Assembly: GCA_028687045.1 (NCBI GenBank)
Contig: JAQUAW010000006.1
Coordinates: 1 to 48,165 of the forward strand
Length of the DNA: 48,165 bases
Reading direction: 5' to 3'
DNA from: Patescibacteria group bacterium
GTDB taxonomy: Bacteria > Patescibacteriota > Patescibacteriia > Magasanikbacterales > UBA922
The notes under the pieces are model-generated. The model saw nothing but the letters and a program-made list of their open reading frames with translations, did no database searches and was not told where the DNA came from. This document shows, piece by piece, positions 6,418-12,746 of the stretch (position 1 is the first letter of the stretch; each line of letters starts with the position of its first letter). The translations under genes and the position numbers were made by a program.

Positions 6418-6813
6418 TCAAAACAAAGTAGAATATTCTTTATAGTTATTCTTTATCATCTGTTTCCAAAGTGTTGTCTCGCTCCCAGAACCAACCAAAT
6501 CATTTTTGTGATAAACTAGTAGTATTGAAACTTTTTTTACTTCTTCATCTACAATAATAATGCATCTGTTGCCAGATGATTTGGGACTTTTGTTGGTACC
6601 AGCGACGGAAAAGTCAGTCTTTATTATCTTATATTTTCCGGCATCAATTATAGTCTCGGCTATATCACGCTTGAGCAACATATCAATACGCTCAAATTGA
6701 GCTAGCAAAGCTTTTTGTGTAATATCCCAAGCACGTTTATATTTTTTTTCAAAACTTTTTATATAGTGCCTCTCTGCAAATTGTTCAATAAATACTGAAT
6801 AATTTTCTAGCAT
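6418..6813 (-). CDS. Putative RelE/ParE-fold toxin partner of the upstream Panacea antitoxin
   Basis: 131 aa; YKIIKTDFSVAGTNKSPKSSGNRCIIIVDEEVKKVSILLVYHKNDL...ETTLWKQMIKNNY; starts 6 nt after the antitoxin ORF. Confidence 0.55.
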   Translation of the reverse strand: MLENYSVFIEQFAERHYIKSFEKKYKRAWDITQKALLAQFERIDMLLKRDIAETIIDAGKYKIIKTDFSVAGTNKSPKSSGNRCIIIVDEEVKKVSILLVYHKNDLVGSGSETTLWKQMIKNNYKEYSTLF

Positions 6814-6819
6814 AAGACA

Positions 6820-7506
6820 TTAATATAAGTTTTTTGGATCTTCTTGAGTGATGAGTTCATAAGGAATGATTTCATCTTCACGACATAAGAAGTAGGGAAG
6901 TTGGTTGTGGGTGAAATTGACTATTTCTTCTGTCCTTTTGTCGTTCCATCTTTTACTTATATTTTTTATCAACTTTTTTTCTTCGGAGTTCAAATCATCA
7001 AATTGTTGTTTTGTATTACTTTCACTTTCTTTTATCAAAAACATATTATTTTTTCTTTTGTCTATCACAATTTTCCCGTCTGATTCTAGTTCATCCAAGG
7101 CTCTAAAATACATGTCTGGCACAGGTCCATAAGCTTGTCGGCGGTATTGCATGCCACTCATACTATCCAATTTTTCATAAAACCAATTGAAATCGGCCAA
7201 ATATACTAGTTTTGCTAATTTTGTTTTTGGGATTTTTTTGTCGGAAGAACTGGCTAGTCTTAAAAAAGATAGTATCATTTCTTTGTATTTTTTCATGTTT
7301 GGGTACATGCCACTTTCTATATTTTCCAAAGATATACCAAAAATATCAGCAATCTTCACCATTTGAGAAAAATTCAAGTCAGTTTTCCCTTGTTCGAAGG
7401 CAATATAAGTAGAACGAGAAGTGTCCAATTTACTGTATATATCTTTTTGAGAAAGACCTTTTTCTATTCTTAATTTTTTTATTAGTTCGCAGTATTTATT
7501 AGTCAT
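6820..7506 (-). CDS. XRE-type HTH fused to Panacea (DUF4065)-like domain, putative antitoxin
   Basis: HTH: LIKKLRIEKGLSQKDIYSKLDTSRSTYIAFEQGKTD; Panacea-like: KTKLAKLVYLADFNWFYEKLDSMSGMQYRRQAYGPVPDMYFRALDEL. Confidence 0.75.
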   Translation of the reverse strand: MTNKYCELIKKLRIEKGLSQKDIYSKLDTSRSTYIAFEQGKTDLNFSQMVKIADIFGISLENIESGMYPNMKKYKEMILSFLRLASSSDKKIPKTKLAKLVYLADFNWFYEKLDSMSGMQYRRQAYGPVPDMYFRALDELESDGKIVIDKRKNNMFLIKESESNTKQQFDDLNSEEKKLIKNISKRWNDKRTEEIVNFTHNQLPYFLCREDEIIPYELITQEDPKNLY

Positions 7507-8144: not shown

Positions 8145-8681
8145 TTAATTTATATTTTTTATAAAATCTATCACTTTGTTTAAATTTTGCCATGCAAGTG
8201 ACCAATCATAAACTAAAATACTGCTTATGAAACCAATTAAGATTGTAATTATTTTGTTTTTTTTCCACAACCAAACTATAAAAATAAATATTAAAGTTAA
8301 GAGTTTCCATAATATCCAGAAAGGATTAATATAATTCCATTTGTTTTCTTTAAGAGAACTTATAGAGTACCAAAAATATTTTCTATAAAATTTTGGTAAT
8401 ATTTTTATTAAAATTAAATCGTGCTCCATCATAAATTCTATTGGTGTAAATATTGAGAGCATAGCTTCTTCTTGTTCGTCACGTCCTATTGGAAGATTTA
8501 TTTCAATTATCCCTTCATTTTCTAACTTCTGTAATATTCTTTTTTCTTCGTCAGCCATTAACGTATTAGGTGCAACAAAATTTGTATTGAAATGATATAT
8601 AACCCAATGTGGTTCGGGATTAATTTCGCTTTCTTCTTTTATTTCTTTTAGTATGTAATATATTTTTTGTTTTTTATTCAT
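8145..8681 (-). CDS. Hypothetical protein with two predicted C-terminal TM segments, last gene of R-M-like operon
   Basis: WILWKLLTLIFIFIVWLWKK and KIITILIGFISSILVYDWSL; ATGA overlap with upstream MTase. Confidence 0.55.
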   Translation of the reverse strand: MNKKQKIYYILKEIKEESEINPEPHWVIYHFNTNFVAPNTLMADEEKRILQKLENEGIIEINLPIGRDEQEEAMLSIFTPIEFMMEHDLILIKILPKFYRKYFWYSISSLKENKWNYINPFWILWKLLTLIFIFIVWLWKKNKIITILIGFISSILVYDWSLAWQNLNKVIDFIKNIN

Positions 8682-9415
8682 AATTTTTGGAAAACAAACA
8701 AATGTTCGTGCATTATTAATAAAAAATTAAGATCTTTTGACTTTTTTACCCAGAAACCTGTCGCTTTACAATTGTGTTGTTGTTTTATAATATCTTCTTT
8801 TAGAAGAAATCCTTGTTTCAAGAATTTTTCCATGACTTTGTAAGCCATTGGCTGGTACATTTTGTTTCTTCTGGTGTCACCAATCAAAATGGCACAAAAT
8901 TTTCCTGGTTTCAAGACTCTGTATAATTCTTTTGCCACTAATTCCATTTCTTCAGCGAATTTTTCTATATCATGAATATTTGATAAGTCTTCTTCTATTT
9001 TTCCTTCGCTATATTTTATAATGTCGGCGTAAGGTGGGTGAGTGAGGACAAAATCAATTTCATTATCTTTTATAAAATCCATTTTTCTAGCGTCACATTT
9101 TATAATCCTTTGTTTTACTTTGTTGTCTACTTCAAAATTTAATGATTTTCTCGTTCTTTCCAAGGCTTCTTCGTTTACATCTATACAAGTGATATGACGA
9201 TTGAGTATTTTGGCTTCAATCGCTGTCGTACCTCCACCAATCATACAATCGAGTAAGTGATCTTTTTCGTTTGAGTAACGCAAAATCAGATTACGCACGA
9301 CTTCTGGTGCCCAATTTCCCCTCCAGTCTGATTTGTGAGTAGCCCATTTCCCACGACGAGGGAAAGACCAGACTGTTGCGCATTCTAAATCGAAATTGTC
9401 TGGGTGAAGTTTCAT
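8678..9415 (-). CDS. Site-specific DNA methyltransferase
   Basis: TVWSFPRRGKWATHKSDWRGNWAPEVVRNLILRYS; LLDCMIGGGTTAIEAKILNRHITCIDVN; FVLTHPPYADIIKYS. Confidence 0.85.
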   Translation of the reverse strand: MKLHPDNFDLECATVWSFPRRGKWATHKSDWRGNWAPEVVRNLILRYSNEKDHLLDCMIGGGTTAIEAKILNRHITCIDVNEEALERTRKSLNFEVDNKVKQRIIKCDARKMDFIKDNEIDFVLTHPPYADIIKYSEGKIEEDLSNIHDIEKFAEEMELVAKELYRVLKPGKFCAILIGDTRRNKMYQPMAYKVMEKFLKQGFLLKEDIIKQQHNCKATGFWVKKSKDLNFLLIMHEHLFVFQKL

Positions 9416-10116
9416 TTTTTTAAACTACTTAAATCTATTTCTGTTATTACGTTGTTATTAGTATAGTTTTTCTTGAAGTAAAAAGCTCTCCTTCTAACTT
9501 TAGTAATACCACCTTTCCCATCTGGAGCTGGTGTTGTGTCTTTATTATTTTTTCCTTTTGTTTTTGGCTCAATATATTCGCCCATAGAACAAGATAGTTC
9601 ATCACCTTTACCTTTTACTATATAAGAGTGTATAAGTTCCCAATCTTTTTTAAAAATTTCTTGTTTTTTTGTATCTGGTACATCTATAAACCAATCCAAT
9701 AGTACATAATTGTCCTGAGACAAATTTTTCTTTGTTTTTGGATCTCTTGGTACGCCATATACTATCCAAAAAATTGTTTCTATCTTGTCTCTTACTTTCG
9801 TTGTTTCCCAAGTTTCTTTTGCAACTTCTAAGAAATTAATCATTTTAATTTGAGTAGGTTCTTTTACTTTCAAATTGTGTAATTGTATAGGTAATACTTT
9901 TATTTCTACTTTTAATTCTTCCAAATCTGCTTTTGGTGATGAATTGTTTTTTAGTCCTAACAAATTTTCAACAATCAAACCAGAAGCACCTTTTTTGAAG
10001 TGGGAATGTTTTTCTCCTGTTATGTGACTATAAATTTCACCAATAGTTTTACCTTTGTTTTTTTCAATAATATCTATGTATTTTTGTAGTGCTTTTAATT
10101 TTTTACTTGATAACAT
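9412..10116 (-). CDS. MutH/Sau3AI-family restriction endonuclease
   Basis: KGASGLIVENLLG...KADLEELKVEIKVLPI (D-x-ExK), ETWETTKVRDKIETIFWIVY, FKKDWELIHSYIVKG, RRRAFYFKKNYTNN. Confidence 0.8.
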   Translation of the reverse strand: MLSSKKLKALQKYIDIIEKNKGKTIGEIYSHITGEKHSHFKKGASGLIVENLLGLKNNSSPKADLEELKVEIKVLPIQLHNLKVKEPTQIKMINFLEVAKETWETTKVRDKIETIFWIVYGVPRDPKTKKNLSQDNYVLLDWFIDVPDTKKQEIFKKDWELIHSYIVKGKGDELSCSMGEYIEPKTKGKNNKDTTPAPDGKGGITKVRRRAFYFKKNYTNNNVITEIDLSSLKK

Positions 10117-10119
10117 ATG

Positions 10120-11754
10120 TTAAAAATATTTGGTTATGATAAAATCATAAATTTTTATAGCTAAATCCTTTGATCTGTCATCTACATTTGATTCTTTCCA
10201 TGGTTCATCGAATTTTTTTATAAAATCTTGAGTTGATAAATAACAGGTATTACTAATTATTTTATTTGAATCTTTAAATTCTTTTTTACCACGCTTAATA
10301 TTTAATTCTTTTTCTAATAATATTAGATTGCCAATTTTATCACACCATTTTTCTTTTTTTGATTGTGGGGATATGTGGTCAAGGGACTCCTCAGTTATAT
10401 CAACATTGTTTCCTGGGTTATAAATTTTTTCTAAAAATCTATAAGAATATAATATTAGTCCTTTATTTTTGTTAAAATTTAAATTAGTAAAATTTGCAAC
10501 AAAATCTTCTTTTTCAGGTATTTTGTTTTTTAGTTCGTCTTTTAAAGTAGTAATAAGAGAATCTATATCATTTGGTTTTTCTCTTAATGAAATAGAAAAT
10601 TTTGAATATTTTTGATCCATTCCAGACGGTCTCTTAGAACATACGGCATTAAAAATATAGTGAAAGTTAGTTAATATTTCTAAAATTTCCTCTAATTTTT
10701 TTTGATGAATTATTCTGTTTTTTGACAAATCTAAAAGTGCAGATAAAAAAGAAAAGTGAACTTTGATTTTAAATTTATCCAACGATATTATCATTTCTCT
10801 TATTTTTATACAATTTTTTACGTCATGTGGACAATATTTTTTAAAATCATTATCGTTTGGTAAAGTTATATCTCTATAAATTTCAGAAAATTCTAATAGT
10901 TTATTTAAAAAAATTTTTGTATCTTTTTGTGAAAAAACTTTAGTTTTTTCATTAAAAGACTTATATAATTTGATATCACTAACTTTTTTAAAATACGAAG
11001 CCCAATATCTGTTAAAAAAGTTTTTTTTGTCTTCTTTTATATTATTTAATAAAATTTTCCATTTTTCTCTTGGATCATCTATCCCTGTTTTTTTAGGATA
11101 TTTTCTTACTACAAAACTTTTTACTAAATCTAATATGTTTAAACTTATACCTCGAAAGTTTAGAGTTATAAATATATTTATTGCTTCTGATTCATTGTCT
11201 TGTACAACAACTATGAAATTTATTTTTAATAAATTATCTCTTAATTTTTTCAACTCTTCTAATTCATAATCTTTAATTTTTTCTTCAAAAAATTTTTTAG
11301 CAGCTAGTAAATTGTTTATCTCTATATTATTATCAGTACATTCTTCATTGTATAAAACTATTTTTTGAAAGAATGAATGAGCATTTTTATTGTTAAGTAC
11401 TAAGTGTGTTTGTGCATTATCATCTTTAAAAAACAGTCTCTCTTTTAAAATTTTTGCTATTTCTATTTCGTTTATTTTTTCAAATTTTTCGATCATCCTA
11501 TTTAAAAGTAGTAGAATTGTTGTTAATCTTTGTTGGCCGTCAATTATTTCAAATGGTCCTATATGATCTGTAAAGTTTTTACCGGCTAAAACTATTGTAC
11601 CCAAAAAGAAATCATTATCCGAAGTTTGTAAATCATTCCAAAATTCATTAAGTTGTTCTAATTCCCAAGAATATTCTCTTTGAAATTCTGGTATTTCATA
11701 TTCTTTTTTTTGTAATATTGTAGAAAGTTGATAACTTTTTGCAAAAAAATCCAT
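10120..11754 (-). CDS. DUF262 + DUF1524 (GmrSD-like) protein
   Basis: YEIPEFQREYSWELEQLNEFWNDL...FEIIDGQQRLTTILLLL; C-terminal HNH-like LDHISPQSKKEKWCDKIGNLILLEKELN. Confidence 0.85.
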   Translation of the reverse strand: MDFFAKSYQLSTILQKKEYEIPEFQREYSWELEQLNEFWNDLQTSDNDFFLGTIVLAGKNFTDHIGPFEIIDGQQRLTTILLLLNRMIEKFEKINEIEIAKILKERLFFKDDNAQTHLVLNNKNAHSFFQKIVLYNEECTDNNIEINNLLAAKKFFEEKIKDYELEELKKLRDNLLKINFIVVVQDNESEAINIFITLNFRGISLNILDLVKSFVVRKYPKKTGIDDPREKWKILLNNIKEDKKNFFNRYWASYFKKVSDIKLYKSFNEKTKVFSQKDTKIFLNKLLEFSEIYRDITLPNDNDFKKYCPHDVKNCIKIREMIISLDKFKIKVHFSFLSALLDLSKNRIIHQKKLEEILEILTNFHYIFNAVCSKRPSGMDQKYSKFSISLREKPNDIDSLITTLKDELKNKIPEKEDFVANFTNLNFNKNKGLILYSYRFLEKIYNPGNNVDITEESLDHISPQSKKEKWCDKIGNLILLEKELNIKRGKKEFKDSNKIISNTCYLSTQDFIKKFDEPWKESNVDDRSKDLAIKIYDFIITKYF

Positions 11755-11756
11755 AT

Positions 11757-12746
11757 CTAATAATTAATCACCAAAACTTCTTTGATTTTTCCTCGTTTAC
11801 TTGCTTTAGAATTTATCATTCTGTTGGCATCTATTTTGTGTACTTTTATTTTTTTATCAATTTCAGAATAAAGTTTGTTTATAAAAGGTGTGTTTGAATT
11901 GGAAAGCATAACAAAACAACCTCGTTTGTGGAGTTCTGCGAAAGTGTCTCTCAATTCTTCTTGTTCTTTTTCTAAGAAAGCTTCTTTGGTGTAACTTGTG
12001 AAACTAGAAGTCTTGTTTACTGGATAATATGGAGGATCAAAATATACAAAATCTCCTTTTTTGGCTTTTTTTAAAACATGTTTATAGTCTTGATGTAATA
12101 TTTTGGTATTTTTTAATGTTTTGGAAAGTTTTAGCAAATTTTCTTCATCACAAATTAGGGGATTGTTGTATTTTCCAAAAGGTACATTGAATTGTCCTTG
12201 GCTGTTTACTCTGTACATGCCATTGAAACAAGTCCTGTTTAGATAGATGAATCTTGAGGCTATTTTCAAATCTGAAAGATTGTCTATTTTTTGAGCACGA
12301 ATTTTTAGAAAAAATTCTTTGTCGTATTTGTACTTTTTTAGACTTTTTATAAGATTTTTTACATCATTTTTTATGACGTTATAAGTGATTACCAATTCTT
12401 GATTCATGTCAGAAAGGACAGCTTTTTGTGGTAGCAAGTCTAGAAATACAGCGCCACCTCCGACAAAAGGCTCAAAATAAGTTGCTTTATTTGGATTGAA
12501 ACCTTCTGGGGGATAAAGCCCTAGTTCTTTGAATTGTTTCAATAATTGTCTTTTTCCTCCAACCCATTTTACAAATGGCTTTGGTCTTTCTGATATTATT
12601 TTTTCAGCATCTTCCAATAGATTTTCTTTTCTAGCCAAAGCAAAAATAGTAGTCGCATAGATGTGATTTATATTGAAAGTTTTTTGTAATTCTAAGACGG
12701 CTTCTTTTTGGACCATATGTATTTTATTATATGGTAATTTTACCAT
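11757..12746 (-). CDS. dam: Dam-type (D12 class) N6-adenine DNA methyltransferase; ORF open to 12788 but likely start MVKLPYNK at 12746 because the longer ORF overlaps the uvrA terminator
   Basis: PFVKWVGGKRQLLKQ; YFEPFVGGGAVFLDL; FVYFDPPYYPVNKTSSFTSYT. Confidence 0.85.
   Translation of the reverse strand: MVKLPYNKIHMVQKEAVLELQKTFNINHIYATTIFALARKENLLEDAEKIISERPKPFVKWVGGKRQLLKQFKELGLYPPEGFNPNKATYFEPFVGGGAVFLDLLPQKAVLSDMNQELVITYNVIKNDVKNLIKSLKKYKYDKEFFLKIRAQKIDNLSDLKIASRFIYLNRTCFNGMYRVNSQGQFNVPFGKYNNPLICDEENLLKLSKTLKNTKILHQDYKHVLKKAKKGDFVYFDPPYYPVNKTSSFTSYTKEAFLEKEQEELRDTFAELHKRGCFVMLSNSNTPFINKLYSEIDKKIKVHKIDANRMINSKASKRGKIKEVLVINY

Follow-up and report, generated by a model that had tools for sequence, protein, structure and literature searches.

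A predicted GATC-type restriction-modification operon of a Patescibacteria group bacterium, with an exchangeable nuclease position and a nested GmrSD-type gene

The window, i.e. the complete stretch of 48,165 nucleotides that was analysed, comes from a genome that is 95.6% complete (G000; G-numbers denote genomes and L-numbers loci), and contains a run of five tightly packed genes on the minus strand (Table 1), with junctions of +2, +3, -4 and -4 nt along the operon. This packing and the family assignments of the original prediction were borne out by the ORF spacing and by searches of Pfam, NCBIfam and PADLOC, respectively. The operon had been claimed to begin just past the uvrA terminator, and a strong intrinsic terminator was indeed identified at that place. 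The candidate promoter is a consensus match only, in a region where the number of such matches is near the shuffled mean. The reading frame of the first gene, dam, is open upstream to 12746/12788, and its start had been placed at 12746; position 12716 is the more probable start, since the 319-residue form equals a 94%-identical orthologue (G002, locus L021) in length and the promoter-like site overlaps the upstream ATG. A chance arrangement can be excluded, because Dam, MutH and M2 each have close orthologues in other genomes, in unchanged order. Adjoining the operon (6418-7506, minus strand), a gene for an HTH-Panacea (SocA/PanA-like) antitoxin of 228 residues is followed by a gene of 131 residues that matches no family, and the two are probably a Panacea toxin-antitoxin pair.

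Table 1. Genes and regulatory elements of the operon (positions in the window)
Feature	Position	Strand	Basis and remarks
M1, Dam-type D12 adenine methyltransferase	11757..12716	-	319 aa; family matches and likeness to LlaDCHI M1
DUF262-DUF1524 (GmrSD-type) predicted nuclease, accessory, nested between M1 and R	10120..11754	-	Domain matches, motifs, trees, DUF262-first search
R, single-domain MutH/Sau3AI-type predicted nuclease	9412..10116	-	Family matches and motif spacing
M2, permuted TRD-less N6/N4-type methyltransferase with invariant HPPY	8678..9415	-	Family match, alignment, model
Orphan protein of 178 aa, two-TM module at its C-terminus	8145..8681	-	4-nt overlap with M2; not co-conserved with the other genes
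uvrA intrinsic terminator, upstream operon boundary	12797-12772	-	Strong
Candidate sigma-70-like operon promoter, TTGCCA-17-TAAAAT	12765-12737	-	TG before second hexamer; consensus match only

Dam matches PF02086 (E=3e-62) as well as the dam model TIGR00571, the latter over its cut-off (Pfam, NCBIfam), is 46% identical to M1 of LlaDCHI and has an intact DPPY motif. The nuclease R matches MutH (PF02976, E=5e-18), and the Sau3AI/MutH models of NCBIfam below their equivalog cut-offs. Its motif spacing is that of MutH, i.e. D...E.K (ADLEELKVEIK), as shown by alignment to Sau3AI and to MutH of E. coli, and a conserved upstream Glu and an FY.KKN motif are also present. The catalytic motifs of Dam, the DUF262 protein, R and M2 all appear to be intact. 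A GATC Type II restriction-modification (R-M) core of Dam and a MutH/Sau3AI-like nuclease, as had been proposed, is supported by these family matches and motifs and by the conserved loci described below. The frequency of GATC (observed/expected 0.66 in the host genome, 0.53–0.65 in relatives lacking the system) was dropped as a sign of restriction, since genomes without the operon avoid GATC equally.

M2 belongs to the N6_N4 methyltransferases (PF01555, E=3e-23) and is 60–95% identical across phyla. Its motif I (MIGGGTT) precedes motif IV, as had been noted; the "TxPPY-like" motif of the original prediction turned out to be HPPY, which is found in M2 of all 81 loci compared (the window plus the best 80 of 357), and for which no paper naming it was found in a literature search. 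Residues 37–93 of M2 match residues 205–262 of the DpnA-type M2 of LlaDCHI, and residues 94–215 match residues 18–136. This non-collinear alignment rules out a DpnA orthologue, as anticipated, and on its evidence M2 is a circularly permuted DpnA relative without the target-recognition segment (TRD). A moderately confident structural model (pLDDT 72) gave the general amino-methyltransferase fold in a structure search, with Trm11/TrmN as best matches (TM-score about 0.6), which is not decisive for the substrate. As the host has ComEC, a DpnA-like role of M2 in protecting transforming DNA is possible. In one relative (L043:8977-10173) the C-terminus of M2 is fused to a domain recognised by eye as LexA/S24-type peptidase-like, which suggests damage-responsive control of a methyltransferase.

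Among 94 other related genomes, M2 orthologues (71–95% identity) could be identified in eight. A wider search of the genome collection gave 357 M2 loci, of which the best 80 were used together with the window; these 81 loci come from many Patescibacteria and Campylobacterota. Within this set, Dam lies upstream of M2 in 67 loci, and at least one nuclease-class gene is found between the two in 66 of these 67. The nucleases in this slot belong to the families DpnII (PF04556; 36 loci), DUF6996/6997 (15), MutH (5), C5 (5), C4 (PDDEXK_11-like; 3), DpnI (2) and HNH (1), where C4 and C5 are nuclease cluster labels of this analysis; one locus has both DpnII and DUF6996/6997. These families are mutually unrelated and have been exchanged between Dam and M2. 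MutH is thus not specific to the system. The set of four genes, for Dam, DUF262 protein, nuclease and M2, is found again in distant bacteria, where unrelated enzymes take the place of the GATC cutter.

The DUF6996/6997 and C5 proteins carry E/D...E-x-K motifs, and examples of both match Type II restriction enzyme profiles of PADLOC. A structure search with the DUF6996/6997 nuclease gave weak matches to Cas4/AddAB-like nucleases only, and nothing on DUF6996 or DUF6997 was found in the literature search. The GATC-nuclease position is held by DUF6996/6997 at L050:1871-2626 and by C5 at L061:4598-5209. From their position, both families are predicted to be GATC-specific restriction enzymes.

Two of the loci have DpnI in the nuclease slot (L095:7279-9681 and L109:7212-9726). 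In both, Dam ends at ...DPPYYPVSKTASFTSYTFA and a stop (after ...FTSYTFA), and is roughly 70–80 residues short; the start of M2 has been replaced by foreign sequence, the replacement differing between the two. DpnI cuts Gm6ATC only. The loss of Dam beside DpnI therefore fits a GATC specificity of the cassette, as a cell with DpnI would not survive the Gm6ATC made by an active Dam, and these alleles provide strong, though indirect, genomic evidence that the intact cassette makes Gm6ATC. Because the DpnI proteins of L095 and L109 are almost identical, both loci may derive from one event and are not two fully independent cases. The situation mirrors the alternative DpnI/DpnII alleles of pneumococcus, where DpnI can replace DpnII at the same locus (PMC3573125). 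Since Dam and M2 bracket a swappable nuclease, and since Dam is broken in the DpnI alleles, the operon is, as read from its genes, a GATC Type II R-M system of the type M1-R-M2.

The protein encoded between Dam and R has both a GmrSD_N (E=8e-34) and a GmrSD_C domain (E=7e-10), with the motifs QREYSW, DGQQR, FITLNFRG and DHISP...IGNL intact. It thereby shows the sequence features of GmrSD enzymes, with DUF262 and DUF1524 in one protein and the QR, DGQQR, FxxxN and His-Me-finger motifs (definitions from PMC11411939). Its best PADLOC profile is HEC-06, matched over nearly the full length (E=2e-62), and this profile class, unmentioned in the PADLOC 2021 text, is found here in the neighbourhood of a GATC R-M operon. 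A DUF262 gene is present in 12 of the 67 Dam-containing loci and in 14 of the 81 loci overall (window plus best 80 of 357). Every Dam locus with DUF262 carries a further nuclease, and the DUF262 protein was therefore rejected as the GATC nuclease itself. The DUF262 gene directly precedes this nuclease gene in all Dam-containing DUF262 loci except L067, where the order is Dam-C4-DUF262-M2.

A DUF262 alignment was also searched against 381 genomes of the class, which escapes the bias of M2 as bait. The four best places (G070, G000, G598 and G486), and six of 15 overall, adjoin Dam or a nuclease of the type found in the Dam-M2 frame; about 0.045 of 15 would be expected from random placement, even if every genome were assumed to have such an operon. 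The closest homologue (55%, G598) lies in the arrangement Dam-DUF262-C4-M2. In maximum likelihood trees, the window protein groups with three in-operon homologues (support 100/98) whose nucleases differ; six in-operon sequences from Patescibacteria and Campylobacterota form a clade with support 100/99, or 86/86 once stand-alone plasmid relatives are added, and there is a second clade of further in-operon sequences. These clade statements are provisional, as the trees over-sample in-operon versus stand-alone members. The interleaving of a GmrSD-like gene with the GATC core, as proposed originally, is thus recurrent, and the window gene belongs to a lineage seen in such operons; DUF262 is a recurrent accessory that was recruited more than once. 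It is also dispensable, as about 80% of the loci (window plus best 80 of 357) lack it and the gene is split in three (L058, L065 and L067). Between the window and L066, identities are 74% for Dam, 80% for MutH and 82% for M2, but 34% for the DUF262 protein, which may have been replaced repeatedly; such divergence would suit a specificity element that is replaced or evolves fast.

Extra genes of at least 130 residues inside the Dam-M2 frame are found in 27 of the 67 Dam-containing loci (window plus best 80 of 357). In addition to DUF262, they encode AIPR/AbiU-like and DndB/DpdB-like proteins, an OLD-type ATPase, a C5-methyltransferase with a HATPase, and small membrane proteins. The DndB/DpdB-like gene is found at L069:7069-8112, L110:5666-7562 and L118:6205-8084, in Campylobacterota with a 280-residue partner. 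Downstream of M2, relatives carry defence genes such as a Gabija-like OLD and UvrD pair, TPR-GreAB-PIN, NACHT and OLD. In G039 (L025:2876-6447), a Gabija-like OLD ATPase and UvrD helicase pair lies directly downstream of M2 and overlaps it.

The last gene of the window operon encodes a membrane protein of 178 residues, with hydrophobic segments near residues 117–141 and 144–163 and nothing above threshold in Pfam, NCBIfam or PADLOC. Searches of 94 further related genomes and of 380 genomes of the phylum gave no full-length relative, and the gene was not seen in the best 80 of 357 M2 loci. Its four weak matches all concern the two-TM tail alone, the one in L126 being to a multi-spanning membrane protein. 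The tail (NPxWLxW...DYSLAW) is common to the window protein and to proteins of L124, L125 and L127, all of Patescibacteria, with unrelated N-terminal domains, and is a candidate for a portable membrane effector or anchor. A conserved abortive effector was rejected, as no orthologue exists in these sets. The idea of an integrated five-gene module with a membrane effector could thus not be upheld: DUF262 recurs with Dam and the nuclease, and M2 is co-conserved with them, but the membrane gene is not co-conserved with the other four. It is probably an unrelated or strain-specific addition belonging to the variable downstream layer.

The operon resembles the GATC R-M systems DpnII, MboI and LlaDCHI in combining a Dam-type M1, a GATC-type nuclease and a second methyltransferase in one operon. 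It differs from these in that R has a MutH fold, M2 is permuted and TRD-less, in contrast to DpnA, and a DUF262 gene is inserted. For a GATC pair on a Psychrobacter plasmid, Dam and R alone are annotated, so that a second methyltransferase is not universal in the DpnII/MboI kind. A parallel for the insertion is TgvAB on VPI-2 of V. cholerae, a GmrSD-type pair inside a Type I R-M operon with experimentally established activity against hypermodified phages, where the nesting was shown to give complementary coverage of unmodified and modified DNA (PMC11411939). The likeness lies in the nesting of a gene of the GmrSD Type IV family inside an R-M operon; unlike TgvAB, an obligate pair of DUF262 proteins, the window has a single DUF262-DUF1524 protein, and its host operon is of the Type II GATC kind. 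By analogy with TgvAB, a nested Type IV gene would be the best reading of the operon. The DUF262-DUF1524 protein also resembles SspE and BrxU, partners of Ssp and BREX, in domain architecture, motifs and the link to modification-based defence. However, its partner here is the Dam/M2 GATC system, similarity to SspE is limited to the N-terminal motif region, and no phosphorothioate modification genes, the partners of SspE, were found in a scan of the operon's proteins and of those encoded a short way downstream.

MboI has the gene order M1-R-M2, and GmrSD Type IV enzymes cleave sugar-modified hydroxymethylcytosine DNA but not unmodified DNA. We consider it likely (probability about 0.62) that the operon is a GATC Type II R-M system of MboI-like order, with an accessory GmrSD-type nuclease gene between M1 and R and two complementary arms. 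What is observed is which genes are present and in which order, that their motifs are intact, that the nuclease is exchanged, that DUF262 recurs in position and lineage, and that Dam is lost when DpnI is present; from this we infer all biochemical activities, the role of M2 and the DUF262 target as follows. Host GATC sites would be methylated to Gm6ATC by Dam, and incoming unmethylated GATC would be cut by the MutH-like nuclease. M2 would add further amino-methylation, perhaps shielding incoming or replicating strands that are poorly protected by Dam. The NTPase/sensor and His-Me-finger domains of the DUF262-DUF1524 protein would destroy DNA with base modifications that block GATC cleavage. 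Expressed from a single transcript, the two nucleases would then cover both unmodified and modified phages.

Alternatively, the DUF262-DUF1524 protein could recognise the methyl marks of Dam and/or M2, much as SspE recognises phosphorothioates, and so be licensed to attack foreign DNA; Dam/M2 would then serve both nucleases as their modification arm. The profile match to SspE points in this direction, as does the persistence of the window's DUF262 lineage beside Dam/M2 in operons whose nuclease may be MutH, C4 or DpnII. Nevertheless, we regard this coupling as rather unlikely, as most Dam/M2 loci (window plus best 80 of 357) lack DUF262, relatives stand alone on plasmids with no methyltransferase neighbour, and AIPR, DndB/DpdB and OLD families fill the same slot. 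Doubtful to a slightly greater degree is a version in which Dam and the permuted HPPY-type M2 jointly place a composite mark on GATC for two kinds of effector to read, its absence by the exchangeable nucleases and its presence or alteration by the DUF262-DUF1524 sensor. If true, it would couple an SspE-like effector to a Type II R-M system.

The slot could also be an insertion hot spot, with DUF262 as an independent defence gene having no functional link to the operon. The many families among the slot extras, the split of in-operon DUF262s into two or more clades, and the low G+C content of the gene (0.226, versus 0.320 for the window) agree with such cargo; the clustering of in-operon DUF262s by lineage, with closest relatives in-operon, and the coupling of gene junctions within a few nucleotides make it improbable to a similar degree. 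Finally, Dam and MutH are strand-discrimination parts of mismatch repair in E. coli, and a MutS-family ATPase domain is present, so that the "methyl-directed arm" of the original prediction might be taken for MutH-style repair rather than restriction. This is highly improbable and was rejected, because MutL was not found: no PF01119 match was obtained in the 95.6%-complete genome, with the control positive in 11 of 14 genomes. In addition, DpnII-type restriction enzymes occupy the MutH position in relatives.

The preferred reading, a GATC R-M operon with a nested GmrSD-type gene, portrays such operons as a cassette in which the two methyltransferases stay nearly constant, the nuclease is drawn from seven interchangeable families, and a GmrSD-type gene recurs in an accessory slot. 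It also draws attention to M2, a second methyltransferase that is highly conserved in Patescibacteria and Campylobacterota, and position supports GATC specificity for the uncharacterised nuclease families DUF6996/6997, C4 and C5. What V. cholerae shows with Type IV genes nested in a Type I operon would thus have a Type II counterpart in this tiny-genome Patescibacterium.
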